From: Levilactobacillus fujinensis
Lineage (GTDB): Bacteria > Bacillota > Bacilli > Lactobacillales > Lactobacillaceae
Reading direction: 5' to 3'
DNA: 52,086 bases
NCBI RefSeq assembly: GCF_003946335.1
Contig: NZ_RHNX01000023.1
Coordinates: 1 to 52,086, forward strand
Of the stretch, positions 9,363-52,060 are shown one piece after another. The notes beneath the pieces were generated by a model, which worked only from the letters and a program-made list of their open reading frames with translations, was not told where the DNA came from and searched no databases. The translations under genes and the position numbers were made by a program. Numbering within the stretch: the first letter of the stretch is position 1; every line of letters starts with the position of its first letter.

Positions 9363-9470
9363 CAAGGATTGAACGACTCAAAACATCTATTATGACTGGT
9401 GTCACAGCGATGCAGAGACTGAAATTGGACAGCGGCGGTCAATTTTCGCCTTACCGGCCGACCGATAAGG
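9363..9470 (-). repeat. Element A copy 1 (partial, right end)
   Basis: This corresponds, in reverse orientation, to the right-hand ~110 bp of the full element A at 19822-20270. Shared blocks include ATTATGAC-N-G-N-TGTCACA and TCGCCTTACCGGCCG. It lies in the 580-bp gap before clpE, upstream of the heat-shock operators. Confidence 0.75.
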
Positions 9471-12064: not shown

Positions 12065-12138
12065 ATGACTAAATGAGGCTACGTCGTCCAGGCATTGCCT
12101 TACCGGTCGGCAAATATGGGTTGAATCGGTACGATTGC
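12065..12138 (-). repeat. Element A copy 2 (partial)
   Basis: In reverse orientation this matches the inner right part of element A, including TTGCCTTACCGGTCGGCA and the ATATGGGTTGAATCGGTACG block. It lies in the gap between clpE and the next gene. Confidence 0.7.
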
Positions 12139-16189: not shown

Positions 16190-16283
16190 ATTCTGCCGGT
16201 TAGTAAGGTGCTGACTGGTCAATGTTGCCTAGTTTTGATCTCAATATTGCTGTTACAACAGTCATACTAGGTATTTTAGAGTT
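16190..16283 (+). repeat. Element A copy 3 (partial, right end)
   Basis: This aligns with the right ~100 bp of element A: TTCTGCCGGTTAGTAAGG, TTGCCTAGTTTTGATCTCA and TACAACAGTCAT. It lies upstream of the ATPase gene, in the 440-bp gap that otherwise holds only the dipeptidase terminator. Confidence 0.75.
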
Positions 16284-18252: not shown

Positions 18253-19611
18253 ATGAAAGTTACAGTTGTTGGTTGTACACACGCAGGGACCTTTGCCATT
18301 AAACAAATCTTAGCAGAACATCCAGACGCCGAGGTCACCGTCTATGAAAAGAATGATAATATCTCGTTCCTATCTTGTGGGATCGCCCTTTATCTCGGTG
18401 GCAAAGTTGCTGACCCCCAAGGTCTCTTCTACTCCAGTCCTGAGGAATTAAAGCGTCTTGGCGCCGACGTTCAAATGGGGCACAACGTCTTGGCAGTCGA
18501 CCCTGACCAAAAGACGGTCACGGTTGCGGACTTGTCTACTCATGAACAAGTAACGAAATCCTACGATAAACTCGTCATGACTTCTGGTTCTTGGCCCATC
18601 ATCCCCAAGATTCCTGGTATCGATGGCGATAAGGTCAAGCTCTGCAAAAACTGGAATCACGCCCAAACGCTGATTGAAGAAGCCAAGGGTGCCAAGCGTA
18701 TCACAGTCATTGGCGCTGGCTATATCGGCGCTGAACTGGCCGAAGCCTACTCTACAACTGGCCACGACGTGACGTTGATCGATGCTATGGATCGGGTCAT
18801 GCCAAAATACTTTGATGCCGAATTCACGGATGTGATTGAACAAGACTACCGTGATAACGGTGTCAAATTGGCCATGGGTGAAACCGTTCAAAGTTTTGAC
18901 CAAAGTGGTGACGCCTTAACGATTACGACCGACAAGGGACACTACGAAACTGACCTTGCCATTCTGTGCATTGGCTTCCGGCCAAACACGGCACTACTCA
19001 AGGGCAAAGTCGATATGGCCAAGAACGGCGCTATCATTACGGATGATTACATGCGGTCATCCAACCCCGACATCTTTGCAGCTGGTGACAGTGCCGCCGT
19101 TCACTATAACCCAACGCACAAAAACGCCTACATTCCGTTGGCAACCAACGCCGTTCGGCAAGGTATTCTAGTGGGCAAAAACTTGGTTAAACCAACCACT
19201 AAGTACATGGGTACACAATCCTCTTCTGGCTTAGCCCTGTACGGCAGGACCATTGTCTCGACCGGATTGACCCTGGCTGCCGCTCAGCAACAAGGCATCA
19301 ACGCCGAACAAGTTATCGTCAAGGACAACTACCGGCCAGAGTTCATGCCAACCACGGAACCCGTCCTGATGTCACTGGTCTTTGATCCAACCACCCGGCG
19401 GATTTTAGGAGGCGCATTGATGAGCAAATACGACGTGTCCCAATCCGCCAACACCCTTTCCGTTTGCATCCAAAACGAAAACACGATTGACGATTTAGCT
19501 ATGGTCGACATGCTATTCCAGCCTAACTTCGACCGGCCATTCAACTATCTCAATATTTTAGCTCAAGCTGCACAAGCTAAGGCTGACAGTTTAACTGGTG
19601 TTAAAGCTTAG
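18253..19611 (+). CDS. nox: NADH oxidase, water-forming type
   Basis: FAD-dependent oxidase of the pyridine nucleotide-disulfide oxidoreductase family; it regenerates NAD+ with oxygen and protects against oxygen in lactic acid bacteria. The 452-residue protein has an N-terminal FAD motif (VTVVGCTHAG), the redox Cys42 in FLSCGIALYLGG, an NAD-binding motif (VIGAGYIGAELAE, near residue 150) and an FAD motif DIFAAGDSA. Start: the ATG at 18253 has GGGAGG at 9 nt; an in-frame TTG at 18238 lies before that site. Cys42 with no second Cys beside it fits both NADH oxidase and NADH peroxidase; length and overall pattern favour the oxidase. Confidence 0.93.
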   Translation: MKVTVVGCTHAGTFAIKQILAEHPDAEVTVYEKNDNISFLSCGIALYLGGKVADPQGLFYSSPEELKRLGADVQMGHNVLAVDPDQKTVTVADLSTHEQVTKSYDKLVMTSGSWPIIPKIPGIDGDKVKLCKNWNHAQTLIEEAKGAKRITVIGAGYIGAELAEAYSTTGHDVTLIDAMDRVMPKYFDAEFTDVIEQDYRDNGVKLAMGETVQSFDQSGDALTITTDKGHYETDLAILCIGFRPNTALLKGKVDMAKNGAIITDDYMRSSNPDIFAAGDSAAVHYNPTHKNAYIPLATNAVRQGILVGKNLVKPTTKYMGTQSSSGLALYGRTIVSTGLTLAAAQQQGINAEQVIVKDNYRPEFMPTTEPVLMSLVFDPTTRRILGGALMSKYDVSQSANTLSVCIQNENTIDDLAMVDMLFQPNFDRPFNYLNILAQAAQAKADSLTGVKA

Positions 19612-19727
19612 TCCCTATCTGCCAACCGCTAAGGCGATGGCGAGATTAGGATGCCTAACTTTTGTCACGGTATCGTTACTATAACAGTCATACTAGGTGC
19701 TTTGTAACCTTCAATTTTCAATCTCAT
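19612..19727 (+). repeat. Element A copy 4 (partial, right end)
   Basis: This right-end fragment starts directly at the nox stop codon. It shares CTGCCAACCGCTAAGGCGAT, TATCGTTACTATAACAGTCA and the CCTTCAATTTT terminal block with other copies. It is followed after 23 bp by element B. Confidence 0.75.
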
Positions 19728-19821
19728 TCAAACCAACTTAAAAATGTGGCTGGGACATAACTCAAAAAGTTGCTTCTTTCAGAGTCTAACGATTCTGAAA
19801 GGAGCAACTTTTTATTTACGC

Positions 19822-20270
19822 TTAAAGATTGAAAGCCAAAATGTTTGCGTTACTCTTGCGACAGTAGGGATTATCACGGCTAGATTAGTGAAAACAGCCG
19901 CACTCCGGCTTTGATTGTGCTCGTCAATTTCAATCATTGAATCCAGGTAGTTGTTAGGGTTTAAACGTAAAACAATAACGCTTCTGTAGGCATAATCCAC
20001 GTTGCCTCAAACCAACTACGTCAGCCGAGAGGTCGGCAGATATGGGCTCAGGCGCGTCGTTCTACTTAGTCAGCAGGTGGGTTCCCTGCCGGCTTAGTAG
20101 AAAACCAAGCTTGGAGCCTCGGTCTTTTCGAGGCTTCAAGCTGTGTTCGCACCGATCCAGCCCATATCTGCCGGCCGGTAAGGCGATAGTTGGACAGCGT
20201 TGCCTAATTTTAGACCCAGTATCGTTGTGACAACGGTCATAATGTGTGTTTCGGGACTTTCAACCTTCAG
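19822..20270 (+). mobile_element. Element A, full-length copy (449-bp MITE-like element)
   Basis: It is flanked by exact 7-bp repeats, TTTACGC at 19815-19821 and 20271-20277. Its ends are imperfect inverted repeats: TTAAAGATTGAAAG at the left, CTGAAGGTTGAAAG as reverse complement of the right, and further matches inward. The same target, with a single TTTACGC, is seen empty at 45632-45638. No transposase is encoded. A 62-codon minus-strand ORF (19812-20000) covers the left half, without a convincing ribosome binding site. The right-centre folds into a three-way junction (20031-20176). It is best described as a non-autonomous mobile element. Confidence 0.88.
20031..20176. other. Three-way-junction fold inside element A
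   Basis: Closing stem: 20031-20048 pairs with 20159-20176, 18 bp with a single G-U. Arm 1: TCTACTTAG (20061-20069) with CTTAGTAGA (20093-20101), one mismatch, then GCAGG (20073-20077) with CCTGC (20085-20089). Arm 2: 20108-20121 with 20129-20142, 14 bp with one G-U. It can form in RNA or single-stranded DNA. Confidence 0.8.
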
Positions 20271-20434
20271 TTTACGCCACTATGGTGCCGAAACGTGTGC
20301 CATAAGGCAGTTTATTACGCTTAACCCAATAACAAAAATCATGTCAGAATCAGGCATAATTTCTGCTATCACGTTAATGCTCGCAAACTAACCGCTTTAT
20401 GTCCCGCTCTGATTTTTTACAGAAAAGCTTTTCC

Positions 20435-22767: not shown

Positions 22768-23040
22768 CTGCAGATTAAAAACAAAAGTTGAAAATCAAAA
22801 TGTTCACTTTACTCTTATGACAATTGCCGCACCTCGGCTACCAGGACGGTAACTTTCCCACTGGCTTAGTAGAAAATTAAGCTTGAAGACTCAACTCTCG
22901 CAGCTTACAGTTGTGTTTGCCCCGTTCCAGCCCATAACTGCCAACCAGCAAGGCGATGATTGACCGGCATTACCTAATTTTAGGCTCAGTCTCGTTATTA
23001 CAACAGTCATAAGTGATATCGTAGAATTTTCAACCTTCAG
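22768..23040 (+). mobile_element. Element A copy 6 (internally deleted, both ends present)
   Basis: A 273-bp derivative with both ends: CTGCAGATTAAAA at the left and, as reverse complement of the right, CTGAAGGTTGAAA. It is flanked by exact 7-bp repeats, TTTAAGC at 22761-22767 and 23041-23047. The ORF region and the left half of the closing stem are missing. It sits directly against the prfC stop codon. Confidence 0.85.
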
Positions 23041-23047
23041 TTTAAGC

Positions 23048-30375: not shown

Positions 30376-30510
30376 GTCAGCTAAAAATTGAGTTTATGAT
30401 TGATGTGGCAACAATACTAAGACTAAAATTAGGCAACATTGGCCAATCATCGCCTTACCGGCCAGCAGACAGGGGCTGGAAACGGGACGAATACAGCCTG
30501 AAGCCGCATG
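30376..30510 (-). repeat. Element A copy 7 (partial, right end)
   Basis: Reverse-orientation match to the right half of element A: ACTAAAATTAGGCAACATTG, TCATCGCCTTACCGGCCAGC and ATACAGCCTGAAGCC. It fills most of the 335-bp gap between the AI-2E gene and the Ntdp gene. Confidence 0.75.
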
Positions 30511-31399: not shown

Positions 31400-31615
31400 A
31401 ACGCCCTGACTTGTCAGTGAGGACTCTTTCCACTGACTTAGTAGAAAACCCACCCCGTAGACTTGGCATTCTCGCAGCTTCAAGTTATGTTTGCCCTGGT
31501 TCCAGCCCCTATTTGTCGGCTGTTAAGGCGTTGGCTGGACTAAGCCACCTAACTAACTTCAGCCTCAATATTGCCGTTACAGCAGGGATAACAAGGGGGT
31601 GGAAACTTTCAATCC
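31400..31615 (+). repeat. Element A copy 8 (partial, right half)
   Basis: About 215 bp matching the right half of element A: CTTAGTAGAAAACCC, TCGCAGCTTCAAGTTATG, GTTAAGGCGTTGGCTGGACT and the terminal ACTTTCAATCCTCTTG. Arm 2 of the fold is still partly present. It lies in the 545-bp gap before the YdeI-like gene. Confidence 0.75.
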
Positions 31616-33262: not shown

Positions 33263-34060
33263 TTAATCCGATTCCCCAAAATCGGCCAGCCAACGACTAA
33301 TATCATCGAGTTTAAAACCTTTGCGATACAAGGCTTGCTTCGTTTTGTAGGCCCGTTCCGATGCAGCCAACGCGCGATAACGGTGCCACATTTTTTCACC
33401 CTGCTTAGCCAACAGGTCCTGTTGCTCATCAACGTCTGGCGTCAATTCTAATGCTGCCAACATGGCACCAGCTTCATCACTGTTAAATCCACGCGTCATC
33501 AGTCCCTGACGAATTTTCTGCTGTTGTGTGCCAAAAGCCTGACGGTGATAACGTCTAGCTAGTTTCTCCGCAATGGCCGTCCCCACGGTCATGCGTTCTG
33601 CTGGCGTGTATTGCTTTAGCGCGTCGTCGATGACTTGCTCACCCACACCCTTTTGGCGCAAGTTCTGTCGAATCACGCGTGGTCCCTTATCACTGGTCGC
33701 CATCATAGTTCGCACATAGCTACCTGCATACTGACTATCGTCTACTAGCGACATTTCTCGCAACTTCTCGAGTGTCTGATCAATCGTTTCGGGTGGAATC
33801 TCCAACGTTCCCAATTTATCACGAACTTCTTTTTCCGTTCGTAGCTGGTTGGATAAATAATCTAGTGCCCGATTATAAGCCTTAGAAACATCATCAGCAG
33901 TCGCTAATTGGCTTTCGAGGTCTTTATCGACCTCCATGCCCTTAAAGAGCCGGAAGTCGACCAGCACGCTCTCACTGACTGGAAAAGCATAGTGCCCGTC
34001 AACGTAAATATTAAACCGGCCACTGCGCTTTTGTGCTTCAATCATGGTAATTTCAGCCAT
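33263..34060 (-). CDS. recX: Regulatory protein RecX
   Basis: A modulator of RecA filaments. The 265-residue length is typical of the long RecX of Gram-positive bacteria, which carry an N-terminal extension. Repeated three-helix units are visible: DYLSNQLRTEKEVRDKLG, EMSLVDDSQYAGSYVR and KGPRVIRQNLRQKGV. AAGGAT precedes the ATG. It is upstream of and close to the serine hydrolase gene. Confidence 0.92.
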   Translation of the reverse strand: MAEITMIEAQKRSGRFNIYVDGHYAFPVSESVLVDFRLFKGMEVDKDLESQLATADDVSKAYNRALDYLSNQLRTEKEVRDKLGTLEIPPETIDQTLEKLREMSLVDDSQYAGSYVRTMMATSDKGPRVIRQNLRQKGVGEQVIDDALKQYTPAERMTVGTAIAEKLARRYHRQAFGTQQQKIRQGLMTRGFNSDEAGAMLAALELTPDVDEQQDLLAKQGEKMWHRYRALAASERAYKTKQALYRKGFKLDDISRWLADFGESD

Positions 34061-34475
34061 GCAGTCACATCCTTTACGTTATTTTTTAATGGAAATTGAA
34101 TGGAACATCAACCATACTGACAATCTTATACTCATTCACCTGACTAGCTAACGCTAAGTCAGCGGCGACCTGAGCTGTAGCTAGCTGTGCCAACACGATT
34201 AGTTGACAGGTCGTTCCTTAGTCCGGAGCGCTCTCCAAAACGGTCACATCTTCTGGCAGCCACAGTGCAAGCATTTTACACGAAAACCGTTTCTAGCTTT
34301 CAATCAAGCTTCGCAACTATTTTACCAGTTCTCTAGATGCGATGCTGAACTTAACGGGTAATTAGTTAAGCCATCATCTTTTCCCTAGCCACATCGTGTG
34401 TGGTCGTCACGGCGCCTAGCCACCAAGCGGTCAACCTGCTATAATTAACGGCATACTGACAAGGGAGTGGTCAAA
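34061..34475. other. Intergenic region between recX and the flavodoxin gene
   Basis: About 415 bp without an ORF I would call. It holds the divergent control regions of recX (minus) and the flavodoxin gene (plus), including an extended -10 box TG-C-TATAAT at 34437-34445. I see no copy of element A or B here. Confidence 0.5.
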
Positions 34476-38234: not shown

Positions 38235-38575
38235 CAGTGGTTAAAAGCCAAATTGTCCACATGACTCTTGTGCTAGTGAAGATTGCCACTACGAAATTAA
38301 TGGCCATGGCCGTGCTCCGATTCCGATTGTGCCCGTCAATTTCAAGCACTGAATTCCATGTAGTTAATCCGGTTTATGTATAAACCGATAATGTTTCTAC
38401 AGACATAATCTATATGCCCATGTAAGCCGAGAGGTCGGCAACTATGGCCTCAGGCGCGTCGTTATGCTTAGTTGATGGGTAACTTTCCCTGCTGGTTCAG
38501 TAGAAAACCAAGCTTGGAGACTCGGTATTTTCACGGATTCAAACTGTGTTCGCACCGTTAATCCCATCCAGACCA
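38235..38575 (+). repeat. Element A copy 9 (left and middle part, right end missing)
   Basis: About 340 bp match the left and middle of element A, including the ORF region, AGCCGAGAGGTCGGCA, CTCAGGCGCGTCGTT, AGTAGAAAACCAAGCTTGGA and GTGTTCGCACCG. The right closing stem and right end are lost. The minus-strand ORF is also conserved here (LEIDGHNRNRST against IEIDEHNQSRSA in the full copy), but a 1-base shift breaks it upstream. Confidence 0.82.
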
Positions 38576-38645
38576 TAGGGGGAACTTAATAGCCAGCTCC
38601 CAAAAAATGCGGTAAGATAGTACCGTTGTGAAAGGAATGTCTGTG

Positions 38646-39713: not shown

Positions 39714-41069
39714 TTAGTGGATAATCATGTTCATTAATAAGACCATGAGCAGACCTACTACCGAGATAACCGTTTCCAGCGTCGTCCAAACTTGGAACGT
39801 TTGCTTGACGCTCAGGTCAAAGTACTCGGAGAACATCCAGAAACCAGCATCGTTCACGTGAGAAGCAGCTAAGGAACCCGCACCAATTGCTAAAGCAATC
39901 ATAACGGGGTCAGCACCTAACGTATGCATCAACGGCGTAATCAGTCCGGAAGCCGTCATCCCAGAAACCGTAGCCGACCCCAATGAGATCCGCAGAATAA
40001 CGGTGATCAACCAAGCCAACAGAATTGGTGAGAACTTGGAATGCATCATCATCTCTTGCACCGCTTTACCAACCCCACCATCGATCAAGACCTGCTTAAA
40101 TGCAGAGCCCCCAGCGATGACCATTAACAGCATCGCAATCGACTTGATGGCATCTTCCAACGTCGCACTGATTTCCTTCATACTCCGACCACGATGGAAA
40201 CCCATGGACCAAATGGCAAAGAGTAACGCAATGACCATGGCGATGACTGGATTCCCCAGCATCGTGATCACGGCATCTAGACCATGCGGATTTTTCGGCG
40301 CAGTCCCCCCGTTAACGACCATTTGATAAATCGTTGCCAGGATCATGAAAACAACTGGAAATAATGACGTGAAAACGGCTAAGCCAAAGCCTGGCGTTTC
40401 CTTTAAGTCAAATTCCTTCACTTCACCAAAGGCGGGTAAGGACTTCTTAATGACAAAGAGATCTGGGTTAAACCGACGAATGACCCGCGTCCAAATTGGA
40501 CCAGCAACGATCACACACGGAATGGCTACGATAACCCCGACCATCAACATTTCACCGACATTAGCGCCCAAAGCGGTCGCAACGGCGGTTGGGGAGGGTT
40601 GGGGTGGCAGGAATCCTTGTGTAGCCGACAGTGCGGCCGCCATTGAGATTCCCAGATAGAGGAAAGGTACTTCGGCTTCCAGAGCAACCGCGAACACGAT
40701 TGGTGTCACCAAAACCAGTCCCACTTCAAACAACAGGGAGATCCCGATTAAGAAGGATGCCACCACAATGGCCACCTGCAACCGTTTCTTCCCAAAGATA
40801 CTGATCAAGGTCCGGGCAATTCGGTACGATCCACCGGCGTCAGAAACCAACCGGCCAATCATCGCTCCAAAGCCAAAGACGATAATCAGTTCGCCCATGG
40901 AGCTACCGATCCCGTTTTTGATGGAATCCGCAATGTTTGCGGGGTTCATGCCTAAACCAAGTGCTACTAAAATAGACGTAGCAATCAGCGAAACGAAGGT
41001 ATTTAACTTCACTCGGATAATCAAGAAGAGCAATAGTAAAATACCCAACAACAAAATCACGAACTGCAT
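39714..41069 (-). CDS. gntP: Gluconate permease, GntP family (first copy)
   Basis: A GntP-family proton symporter of 451 residues with about 12 membrane helices; family motifs include GFGAMIGRLVSDAGG, FLPPQPSPTAVA and GSLAASHVNDAGFWMF. It is clearly paralogous to the permease at 50313-51671 (same length, collinear motifs). I start it at the ATG at 41069, behind AAAGAGAG; the longer frame upstream adds a non-homologous extension. It is a single gene away from the gluconate operon, with its own promoter that contains an inverted repeat. Confidence 0.9.
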   Translation of the reverse strand: MQFVILLLGILLLLFLIIRVKLNTFVSLIATSILVALGLGMNPANIADSIKNGIGSSMGELIIVFGFGAMIGRLVSDAGGSYRIARTLISIFGKKRLQVAIVVASFLIGISLLFEVGLVLVTPIVFAVALEAEVPFLYLGISMAAALSATQGFLPPQPSPTAVATALGANVGEMLMVGVIVAIPCVIVAGPIWTRVIRRFNPDLFVIKKSLPAFGEVKEFDLKETPGFGLAVFTSLFPVVFMILATIYQMVVNGGTAPKNPHGLDAVITMLGNPVIAMVIALLFAIWSMGFHRGRSMKEISATLEDAIKSIAMLLMVIAGGSAFKQVLIDGGVGKAVQEMMMHSKFSPILLAWLITVILRISLGSATVSGMTASGLITPLMHTLGADPVMIALAIGAGSLAASHVNDAGFWMFSEYFDLSVKQTFQVWTTLETVISVVGLLMVLLMNMIIH

Positions 41070-44539: not shown

Positions 44540-44747
44540 TCCATTGATCAGTGCGGGGTTTCCCAACGAGCTTACATAGAAAAACAAGCTTGGCGACTCG
44601 ACATTTTCGAGGCCTCGAATTGGGGGCACCCCGTTCCAGCTTATATCTGGTGACTGATAAGTCAATGATTGATCTAAATTCCCTAATTTCGTCCCAATAT
44701 CGCTGTTACAACGGTCATAACCGGTGTTTTGGAATCTGCAATCTTCA
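44540..44747 (+). repeat. Element A copy 10 (right half)
   Basis: Matches the right half of element A: AAACAAGCTTGGCGACTCG, ATTTTCGAGGCCTCGA, CGTTCCAGCTTATATCTGG, ATATCGCTGTTACAACGGTC and the terminal CTGCAATCTTCAG. Arm 2 of the fold is still complementary, with changes on both sides. It fills most of the 430-bp gap between divergent genes. Confidence 0.8.
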
Positions 44748-44919
44748 GTTACTAACCTAACCAACCACAAAACCAGTTGTCTTTTTCTATTTTAACAGTC
44801 ACACCGGCGTCGCGATAGCTCTAGAATTAATTTTCCGCTAAACCGGGGTAATTGTTAAGGCATTCGCAGCTAAAAATGGTATATTGAAGGTGGAAATCTA
44901 TTCAAGGGAGGGATTACCG

Positions 44920-45317: not shown

Positions 45318-45412
45318 ATTTTGAGCGTAATTTGAATGATTGTGCTCCGACTTACAGCGCAATCAAAAATTTCAACTCACAATCATGCAAAAATGAAGAA
45401 TGGAATAAAAGG

Positions 45413-45540
45413 CGGATATGGGCTCAGGCTCGGAAATTTCGAGACTTCAACCTGTGTTCGCACCGTTCTCTAGCCCATATCTACCGACTGGTAAGGCGCT
45501 GATTGGACTAAATTGTCCTTTTAACTCATGCTTCAGCCAC
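45413..45540 (+). repeat. Element A copy 11 (internal deletion derivative)
   Basis: It keeps the core of the closing stem (GATATGGGCT ... AGCCCATATC), TTCGCACCG and TGGTAAGGCGCTGATTGGAC, but most of both arms is gone. It lies 27 bp before element B copy 2. Confidence 0.75.
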
Positions 45541-45567: not shown

Positions 45568-45768
45568 GTGGGACATAACTCAAAAAGTTGCTTCTTTCAG
45601 AATTATTAGATTCTGAAAGAAGCAACTTTTATTTACGCCCCTATGGTGCCGAAACGTGGGACACAAGGTAGTTTATTGCGCTTACTCCGATAGCAAAAGC
45701 TATGCCAGAATCGGGCATAATCCCTGCTATCACGTTAATGCTCGCAAACTAACCGCCTGATGTCCCAC
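45568..45768. mobile_element. Element B copy 2 (201 bp, uninterrupted)
   Basis: Perfect 9-bp terminal inverted repeats: GTGGGACAT (45568-45576) and ATGTCCCAC (45760-45768). A perfect 21-bp hairpin (45583-45603 with 45610-45630, 6-nt loop) can act as an intrinsic terminator. It has no coding capacity. It is nearly collinear with the two arms of copy 1 and gives the empty site for the element A insertion (single TTTACGC at 45632-45638). It lies between convergent genes. Confidence 0.88.
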
Positions 45769-45791
45769 TCTCCTCATTTACATTTATTAAA

Positions 45792-50312: not shown

Positions 50313-51671
50313 ATGGAGCTTATAGCACTTTTAATTGGGGTTATCTTCTTATTGGTCCTCATTATCAAATTCAAGATCAATACTTTCGTTTCCCTGATTC
50401 TTACCTCCGTTCTGACAGCCATGCTGTTAGGGATGGACCTAACCAAGATTGCCACGACGATTGAGGCTGGGATTGGGAGCCAACTTGGCGAACTATCCTT
50501 AGTCTTTGGATTCGGTGCCATGCTGGGTCGGTTAGTTGCCGATGCCGGTGGGGCCTACGTTATTGCGACGACACTGATTGATAAATTCGGGAAACAACGT
50601 TTGCAATTAGCCATTATGTTAGCATCATTCATTCTCGGGATTGCTTTGTTCTTCGAAGTTGGGATGGTTCTGTTGATCCCTATCGTCTTCGCCATTGCCG
50701 TTGAAGCTGAAGTCCCAATTCTTTACTTGGGGATTTCCATGGCGGCTGCTTTGTCCGTTACCCATGGCTTCTTGCCACCTCACCCGGCACCTGTTGCCAT
50801 TGCACAAGTCCTGGGCGCTAATGATGGGAAGGTGCTTCTGTTTGGTTTAGTTGTTGCGATTCCTGCAGCTATCGTTGCCGGACCCATGTTCACGAAACTT
50901 GCGCAGAAATTTGCGCCGGCCGCATTTGAACGTAAAGGAAACTTATCTTCATTGGGTGAAGTTAAGACCTTCAAGCCTTCCGAAGCACCTAGCTTTGGTC
51001 TGTCCGTTCTGACTTCCCTCTTCCCCGTTATCTTGATGGCCATCACGACCATCTACAAGATGACGGTCGATGGTGGGGCAACACCAACTAAGAACGCCTC
51101 ACTGTTAGACCAAATCGTTGCCTTGATTGGTGATCCCGCCATTGCGATGTTGATTTCATTACTCGTTGCCATGTTTACCATGGGCTGGGGGCGGAATCGG
51201 AAGACTGCAGACATCATGGCTACTTTGGAAAATGCCGTCAAGTCAATCGCGATGCTGCTGTTAGTTATCGGTGGTGGTGGCGCCTTCAAACAAGTCCTCA
51301 TCGACGGTGGTGTTGGTAAAGAAGTTGCTAAGCTCTTCATCGACTCCAACATGTCTCCACTGATCTTAGGGTGGTTGGTCGCTGTGGTTCTCCGGATTGC
51401 CTTGGGTTCCGCAACTGTTTCCGCTTTGACCGCTGCCGGAATTGTGGCCCCATTGATGGCACAGTCCGGCGTTGACCCTGCCCTAATGGTTCTTGCCATT
51501 GGTGCTGGTTCCTTGGCCGCATCTCACGTAAACGATGCTGGGTTCTGGATGTTTAGAGAATATTTTGATTTAACTGTTAAGCAAACGCTGAGCATTTGGA
51601 CGGTACTGGAAACCGTGATTTCCATCGTCGGGATACTGATTGTGCTGCTGTTGAACATGGCATTCCATTAA
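50313..51671 (+). CDS. gntP: Gluconate permease, GntP family (second copy, in operon)
   Basis: A 452-residue gluconate:H+ symporter with about 12 membrane helices. Motifs match the copy at 39714-41069: GFGAMLGRLVADAGG, FLPPHPAPVAIA and GSLAASHVNDAGFWMFREYFD. It is the last gene of gnd-gntK-gntP. AAAGGG precedes the ATG. Substrate is given by the neighbours; members of the family also take other sugar acids. A hairpin in the upstream gap may lower its expression relative to gntK. Confidence 0.93.
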   Translation: MELIALLIGVIFLLVLIIKFKINTFVSLILTSVLTAMLLGMDLTKIATTIEAGIGSQLGELSLVFGFGAMLGRLVADAGGAYVIATTLIDKFGKQRLQLAIMLASFILGIALFFEVGMVLLIPIVFAIAVEAEVPILYLGISMAAALSVTHGFLPPHPAPVAIAQVLGANDGKVLLFGLVVAIPAAIVAGPMFTKLAQKFAPAAFERKGNLSSLGEVKTFKPSEAPSFGLSVLTSLFPVILMAITTIYKMTVDGGATPTKNASLLDQIVALIGDPAIAMLISLLVAMFTMGWGRNRKTADIMATLENAVKSIAMLLLVIGGGGAFKQVLIDGGVGKEVAKLFIDSNMSPLILGWLVAVVLRIALGSATVSALTAAGIVAPLMAQSGVDPALMVLAIGAGSLAASHVNDAGFWMFREYFDLTVKQTLSIWTVLETVISIVGILIVLLLNMAFH

Positions 51672-51743: not shown

Positions 51744-52060
51744 CTGAAGGTTGAAAGTCCCAAAACACTCATTATGACTGTTGTCACAACGACACTGGGT
51801 CTAAAATTAGGCAATGTTGTCCAACCATCGCCTTACCGGCCGGCAGATGTAGTTAGTCTGAGTAACATGGATCATGTCGCTAGGAACGCTGTTGAATTAT
51901 GCTTAAACTTTAGCCGCCACTTGGGATTCAGTGATTGGAGTTGACGCGCACAATCAAAACCGGAGGCGGCCAGGGATGCAGCTAGCCGTGTCGACAATGT
52001 TAGTCGGCGTTTTGAAGTGCAAGCAAAATGTTAGACACTTTTCTAACCTAGGCAACTAGC
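51744..52060 (-). mobile_element. Element A copy 12 (junction region deleted; extends to near the window end)
   Basis: Reverse orientation. It starts with the intact right end CTGAAGGTTGAAAG and continues through TCGCCTTACCGGCCGGCAGA. It then jumps directly to GTAGTTAGTCTGAG, so the three-way-junction region is removed precisely. The ORF region follows (GTTGACGCGCACAATCAAAA corresponds to IEIDEHNQ). The left end becomes hard to follow near 52060. Confidence 0.8.

Follow-up and report, generated by a model that had tools for sequence, protein, structure and literature searches.

A dispersed MITE-like repeat with a predicted three-way-junction fold in Levilactobacillus fujinensis and other Lactobacillaceae

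The element and its insertion site

The window, a 52,086-bp stretch of contig NZ_RHNX01000023.1 of Levilactobacillus fujinensis, carries a 449-bp element at positions 19822 to 20270 on the plus strand. The exact bracketing of this copy by the 7-bp sequence TTTACGC, pointed out in a sequence-only reading of the window, was borne out, with the left copy of the target duplication at 19815-19821 and the right copy at 20271-20277. The imperfect inverted repeats that it described at the ends (TTAAAGATTGAAAGCC and GACTTTCAACCTTCAG) were also found. The left terminal repeat, TTAAAGATTGAAAG, occupies 19822-19835 on the plus strand and has the family form CTRAAGGTTGAAAG; the right one, at 20257-20270, is CTGAAGGTTGAAAG when read on the minus strand and matches the end motif. 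No open reading frame of 80 aa or more in the window ORF list overlaps 19822-20270. The right part of the element contains a match to a structured-core model of a three-way junction at 20016-20198 (plus strand, 201.5 bits in model R1), of which the outermost pairs join 20024-20026 with 20182-20184.

The element was inserted into a copy of a second repeat family, whose left part lies at 19751-19821 and whose right part lies at 20271-20421 (blast match 20261-20421), both on the plus strand. An uninterrupted copy of this second repeat is present at 45569-45782 (plus strand) and has TTTACGC once. When the two flanks were joined and aligned with this copy, 183 of 215 columns were identical and no gap fell at the junction; the single one-base gap lies in a T run a few bases to the left of it. 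The alignment score was 299 with the flanks joined and 211 with the element kept. Because the joined flanks run ungapped through the junction, 45569-45782 is taken as a paralogous empty site, into whose sister copy the element was inserted.

Comparison between species gave further sites of this kind. We compared 99 foreign copies with the own sequence, found both flanks for 17 and read six by eye. A copy of L. enshiensis (L108) and one of L. koreensis (L059) are not matched by any element at the orthologous own sites, the own sites L163:13150-13285 and window 34056-34334 hold only a collapsed core or remnant, and at L147 a full element of the own genome stands at the place of a different one in koreensis. 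Empty sites exist, and the similarity between copies is not confined to short GC-rich words, so neither of the two outcomes that would have spoken against a mobile element occurred.

All 11 further window copies that had been listed were matched by blastn with the element, with E values from 3e-46 to 1.6e-5. Those on the plus strand are a partial copy at 16192-16266 (E 1.6e-5), a decayed right-end copy close upstream of the element at 19610-19720 (E 1e-7), a partial copy in two matched pieces at 22784-23047 (22784-22822, E 0.002; 22863-23047, E 5e-31), a partial copy with a decayed core at 31427-31540 (core 33.2 bits in R1), a larger copy at 38241-38557 (core match 38418-38595, 78.7 bits in R1) and partial copies at 44557-44750 (E 3e-21) and 45411-45508 (decayed core match 45394-45511, 29.6 bits in R1). 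On the minus strand there are a partial copy of the right half at 9364-9470 (E 1e-12), partial copies at 12071-12134 (E 2e-10) and 30394-30505 (E 8e-22), and a copy with the right terminal repeat and an internal deletion at 51744-52013. Both orientations, as first described, were also obtained with a 621-bp query, which gave 12 chains in the window, 4 of them on the minus strand.

The own genome (G000) has 3.0 Mb in 103 contigs. With one mismatch allowed, the end motif CTRAAGGTTGAAAG occurs in it 69+73 times, against 1+1 times for a reversed control. A search at E 1e-4 with a single query of 621 bp identified 60 complete or partial chains in 452,086 bp of own sequence including the window, the 400-kb sample being three large contigs and no random draw. 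The claim that copies lie between genes held throughout this sample: with 2 of the 60 chains set aside for their shortness, 58 of 58 chains (>60 bp) overlap ORFs of at least 120 aa by less than 10%, compared with 13% of random placements in the window and the 400 kb. Among 19 own elements in which both ends were found by motif, exact duplications were 7 bp in 6, 8 bp in 2 and 6 bp in 3 (7-8 bp in 8/19, at least 6 bp in 11/19), and exact duplications of at least 4 bp were absent from 8/19. Allowing one mismatch, a 7-mer repeated in the two flanks was present in 9/19 elements and in 0/342 swapped flank pairings. Three contigs (C27, C29, C79) stop 76 bases after an element end begins. It means that the repeat probably breaks the assembly, so copy number may be underestimated.

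Full-length form and structured core

The 449-bp copy had been regarded as the full element, which we reject, as other copies reach 621 bp. The element in its 621-bp form, of which L008:1254-1874 is the longest clean copy, has 14-bp inverted ends, 7-8-bp duplications and two copies of one fold of about 165 nt, a three-way junction, which are inverted and outward-facing; the window copy kept one. The window copy is therefore an internal-deletion form, 172 bp shorter, and nearly all of the difference lies between two CTCCGGC words (by eye). One such word stands at the deletion junction, 19903-19909 on the plus strand, where longer copies have about 171 bp more, including the second inverted core (by eye). 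The second core has diverged in sequence, yet the same model finds both cores in the own copies L147, L149, L161, L163 and L164. The earlier reading had missed that the copy is a deletion form, that a conserved fold occurs twice in inverted order in the longer element, and that this fold is spread over Lactobacillaceae.

Outward order is also seen in other genera, in 10 of 11 close core pairs; in the remaining pair, in L179, both cores lie on one strand. No second core was matched in 9 of 20 loci of other genera. In genome G022, all 13 neighbouring pairs less than 1 kb apart, among 89 cores listed, are outward. By eye, four g21 loci (L186, L187, L212, L228) have a strong terminator-like hairpin in the spacer between outward cores.

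An alignment and a covariance model of the copies revealed a conserved fold in Levilactobacillus and other genera. In the predicted fold the outer stem is short and contains an internal loop; there is also a long stem, and two hairpins branch off at the three-way junction. Alignment A1 contains 82 cores of one genus and at least six species, picked from 121 distinct cores without N; near-duplicates were dropped by eye and cores less than 350 bp from a locus end were excluded. Alignment A2 contains 35 cores from six genera. In A1, 99.0% of 4395 cells pair, against 32-44% in slid versions. Changes on both sides were found in 17 of 54 pairs in A1 (shuffled mean 6.9) and in 48 of 54 pairs in A2 (shuffles 32.6), with 0 of 500 shuffles as high in either case, and 97.3% of A2 cells were paired compared with 71.2% in shuffles; these covariation counts lean towards the structure, which was derived from A1 itself, A2 being fitted to the model. 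All four Watson-Crick types occur at one A1 pair (AU 53, GC 21, UA 3, CG 2). By eye, the alignment has invariant letters at the junction and at two mismatched hairpin places.

The element is predicted to fold strongly on both strands. On the given strand, 204 G.U cells were counted against 24 A.C cells, so the given strand is probably the folding strand, with a signal much of which comes from few columns: some G.U occurs in 20 of 54 pairs and some A.C in 18 of 54, and positions with at least 3 such cells number 9 for G.U and 2 for A.C. Compensatory changes together with G.U tolerance on the given strand suggest that selection acts, or has acted, on a single-stranded form, as RNA or ssDNA. We infer that the predicted fold acts as one of the two, and covariation fits both alike.

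A search of the window against Rfam 15 gave tRNA only and no family match for the core. For two elements, at E up to 10, there were 6 microRNA, snoRNA or lncRNA matches, all far below gathering scores.

Divergence was compared among 26 well-matched own copies, a choice by similarity that favours good cores. The ratio of core to arm divergence was 0.89 (4 pairs) and 0.86 (8 pairs) in the youngest bins, which are small and made of non-independent pairs, and 0.2-0.4 in the oldest pairs. Per site, the core had 0.15 shared variants and 0.21 singletons, the arms 0.47-0.58 and 0.41-0.43. We read this pattern as likely selection on lineages that are still moving, with inserted copies decaying; the twofold rarity of singletons in the core would be compatible with some selection on single copies.

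Gene neighbourhood was examined with greedy ORFs as gene calls, and 51 of the 58 chains had two neighbours. These elements were common between convergent genes (21/51) and rare between divergent genes (5/51), with 25 in tandem gaps, while the 342 sample gaps comprised 61 convergent, 218 tandem and 63 divergent ones. In the tandem gaps, 17 elements run against the genes and 8 with them.

Distribution and partners

A 25-base core word was found in at least 104 stretches (one genome per species), all from Levilactobacillus, and the species among the matches listed were koreensis, enshiensis, andaensis, hammesii, tujiorum and paucivorans. Model R1 matched 34 of 35 genomes of the genus, 45 of 201 family genomes and 10 of 40 genera; a scan of the class, with 6 candidates scored in each of 398 genomes, matched the genome of the window alone, and Infernal's stricter filters were used in both the class and the family scan. 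Model R2, which was built from six genera and for which 14 matching genomes outside the genus supplied training cores, matched 129 of 397 Lactobacillaceae genomes and 15 of 40 genera at E <=1e-6 under the same stricter filters. Some genomes, for example G175, G656, G778, G129 and G784, had one match each of 6 scored in the R2 scan.

Copy counts of the fold are lower bounds, as only 6, 13, 40, 76 or 150 candidates were scored per genome, and counts at E up to 0.001 are inflated by weak and antisense matches. At least 136 matches were obtained in G022 and at least 107 in G181, each from 150 scored candidates. Within the genus, at least 55 of 76 scored candidates matched in 27 of 35 genomes, but counts are as low as 1 (G031) and 0 (G021). 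In the own genome, 10 of 43 R1 matches score 197-213 bits and the other 33 less than 100 bits, some of them being antisense echoes of full copies.

The same ends were identified in genus g22, with 95 motif hits in G246 and 50 in G227, against 8 and 10 in the control. The g22 elements measure 133 to 604 bp, and 9 of 19 that were read have exact 7-8-bp duplications. A 600-604-bp subfamily (L248-L251, L259) carries about 90 nt of extra hairpins in one core beside the junction (by eye). Three species (G013, G016, G029) have 33, 11 and 40 core matches and 0, 1 and 1 end-motif hits, no more than the control, so the core can occur apart from these ends. In G181, several copies cease to resemble one another at the limits of the core, for example L212 and L220.

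Coreless copies exist as well. A 159-bp g22 element (L254) has an exact 8-bp duplication, and the own copies L146, L161 and L164, which lack the hairpins P3 and P4, have 6-bp duplications. Either the core is unnecessary for movement or it was lost afterwards. In five own copies (L146, L149, L150, L161, L164) both hairpins are deleted, with at least 2 different junctions, and the long stem is kept.

The absence of a nearby transposase, noted earlier, can be upheld for the 8 of 73 window ORFs that were checked by Pfam, none of which is one. No autonomous IS with the same ends was found in the stretches and contig ends examined, so that the supply of a transposase in trans is something we infer. 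Four pairs of ends spaced 750-8000 bp have host-like genes or parts of genes between them, judging by eye from the translations; a further pair is spaced about 14 kb. Apparent core pairs with a spacing of about 3.9 kb in G009 and G032 proved to be two separate elements round a guaB-like gene (by eye). Two short own contigs with the end motif were read for partner genes; on one of them, ORFs that by eye are IS256-like transposases lie 1.8 kb from the motif and were judged unrelated. At a contig end, L236:32-1210 holds two adjacent ORFs that resemble a broken IS256-type transposase (by eye).

Plasmids and phages were considered as sources and rejected: the element, the 621-bp form, two g22 pieces and a g21 pair had no plasmid match, and the element had no match in phages. 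A g55 core has one distant plasmid match, a piece of about 100 bp on two L. brevis plasmids, which on the one examined sits between annotated ordinary genes. In viral contigs the core pattern gave 0 matches, and two looser patterns gave 1 and 3 stretches, none of which was matched by R2, so they are put down to chance.

Interpretation and related repeats

The inverted ends, the 7-8-bp duplications, the empty site in the window, the presence and absence at orthologous sites and the copy number support the earlier view of a MITE-like mobile element without a transposase. We consider it probable that this is a non-autonomous MITE-type element of Levilactobacillus built around a fold that is kept for its own propagation. 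A DDE-type transposase supplied in trans would move the element. The fold would be recognised as RNA or ssDNA during propagation and would be kept mainly since lineages that retain it propagate better, and single inserted copies would decay. The fold itself may be a previously unlisted structured motif of RNA or ssDNA. A more specific version, which we hold only tentatively and regard as unlikely, is that each transposon end encodes the same three-way-junction molecule with its 3' side outward, and that this fold is recognised by a protein, which might also read the DNA immediately beyond the end; movement or homing would then need the fold as well as the inverted repeats.

The symmetrical halves, each made of a terminal repeat, an arm and a core with its 3' side outward, could also mean that the elements are fused ends of a larger transposon, the fold being a recognition structure or a guide-like RNA near the end and the enzyme gene having been lost. 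This is a possibility, if a rather unlikely one, since no copy with a mobility gene between its cores was found and the long-spaced end and core pairs examined by eye hold host genes. It is doubtful that the core is a passenger, that is, an independent repeat with its own spreading route which was caught between CTRAAGGTTGAAAG ends in Levilactobacillus and g22. Cores without these ends in G013, G016 and G029, the G181 copies whose similarity stops at the core ends, and the target duplications of coreless copies are what such a history would leave. Against it, two genera share the same ends and the same order of two cores, and the paired outward order is seen also where these ends are lacking or not seen, which suggests that the two-ended element is older and that other ends have gone unrecognised.

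Selection at the level of the cell would offer another account, in which the core serves the host as an RNA, such as a 3'-end mRNA element or an sRNA, with mobility secondary. The core is far more conserved than the arms, elements lie at gene ends, G181 has near-identical cores with unrelated flanks and the fold occurs in 15 of 40 genera, all as a host RNA would have it. But promoter avoidance alone would produce the gene-end bias, the counts swing widely within one genus, from 0 and 1 to at least 55, sites differ between species, with an orthologous core collapsed in the own genome, and 33 of 43 own core matches are below 100 bits, so we think this improbable. Chance or low-complexity similarity among hairpins that are merely alike finds some excuse in the strong folding of the element on both strands, and is practically dismissed by the end-motif, covariation and duplication controls together with the empty site. 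The non-autonomous MITE-type element, with its fold kept for propagation, stays the best explanation.

The fold is present in 15 of 40 sampled Lactobacillaceae genera, with tens to more than 100 matches in most genomes scored deeply. As it is so abundant and has no Rfam family, such genomes appear under-annotated in many spots. A role in transposition would join an RNA or ssDNA structure to a TIR-type element, and a role for the host would make the fold an abundant RNA of food and probiotic bacteria. In both cases the copies can serve as markers for assembly, strain typing and gene-end regulation.

Structured intergenic repeats are known from several bacteria. In the Bacillus cereus group, bcr1 is a dispersed, structured and apparently mobile intergenic repeat; by description it is set apart by its other bacterial family and other size. 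BIMEs and REPs are paired inverted folded units in intergenic DNA. REPs are given as 20-40 bp (PMC3733652), compared with a unit of about 165 nt here, in an element with terminal repeats and a 7-8-bp duplication.

Closer parallels are the BOX and RUP repeats of Streptococcus pneumoniae, which are described as high-copy and modular, with terminal inverted repeats and target duplications, and inserted into one another; BOX measures 67-637 bp, pneumococcal repeats would be strongly folded if transcribed, and IS630-Spn1 has been proposed as the helper of RUP (PMC3049150). By these descriptions, and not by sequence, BOX and RUP resemble the present element in high copy number, inverted ends, target duplications, strong fold, modularity and insertion into other repeats. 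They differ in being streptococcal, while the present element has a three-way-junction fold of about 165 nt that is found in several genera and occurs twice, inverted, and a 7-8-bp duplication; unlike RUP, for which a helper was proposed, none was found for the Levilactobacillus element. SPRITE of S. pneumoniae, as described in the same source, is similarly enriched at the 3' ends of convergent genes (PMC3049150), but is terminator-like, unlike the core here; the second repeat at 45569-45782 is nearer to it. QMITE2 of Coxiella, as described, has terminal inverted repeats, 7-9-bp direct repeats and stable predicted folds (PMC10969869). These features of QMITE2 and other MITEs are shared by the present element, while their folds are described as predicted only and here base pairs covary across genera; the main text of that paper makes no mention of Lactobacill*. 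The titles and opening parts of abstracts in our literature search gave no description of the repeat. We assign the element to the MITE kind, as a variant not described before, and its fold may be a new RNA class.

Two further features of the window were observed. The second dispersed repeat (45569-45782, and 19751-19821 with 20271-20421) is about 205-214 bp long, has a terminator-like hairpin and ends in GGGACATAA.../...ATGTCCC. In the own genome it gave at least 71 matches with 40 of 94 candidates scored, some of them being the hairpin matching on both strands. The ORFs at 39763-41046 and 50339-51622 lie on opposite strands and share 65% DNA identity. The former is a GntP-family permease by Pfam, and from this identity the latter is probably its paralogue.
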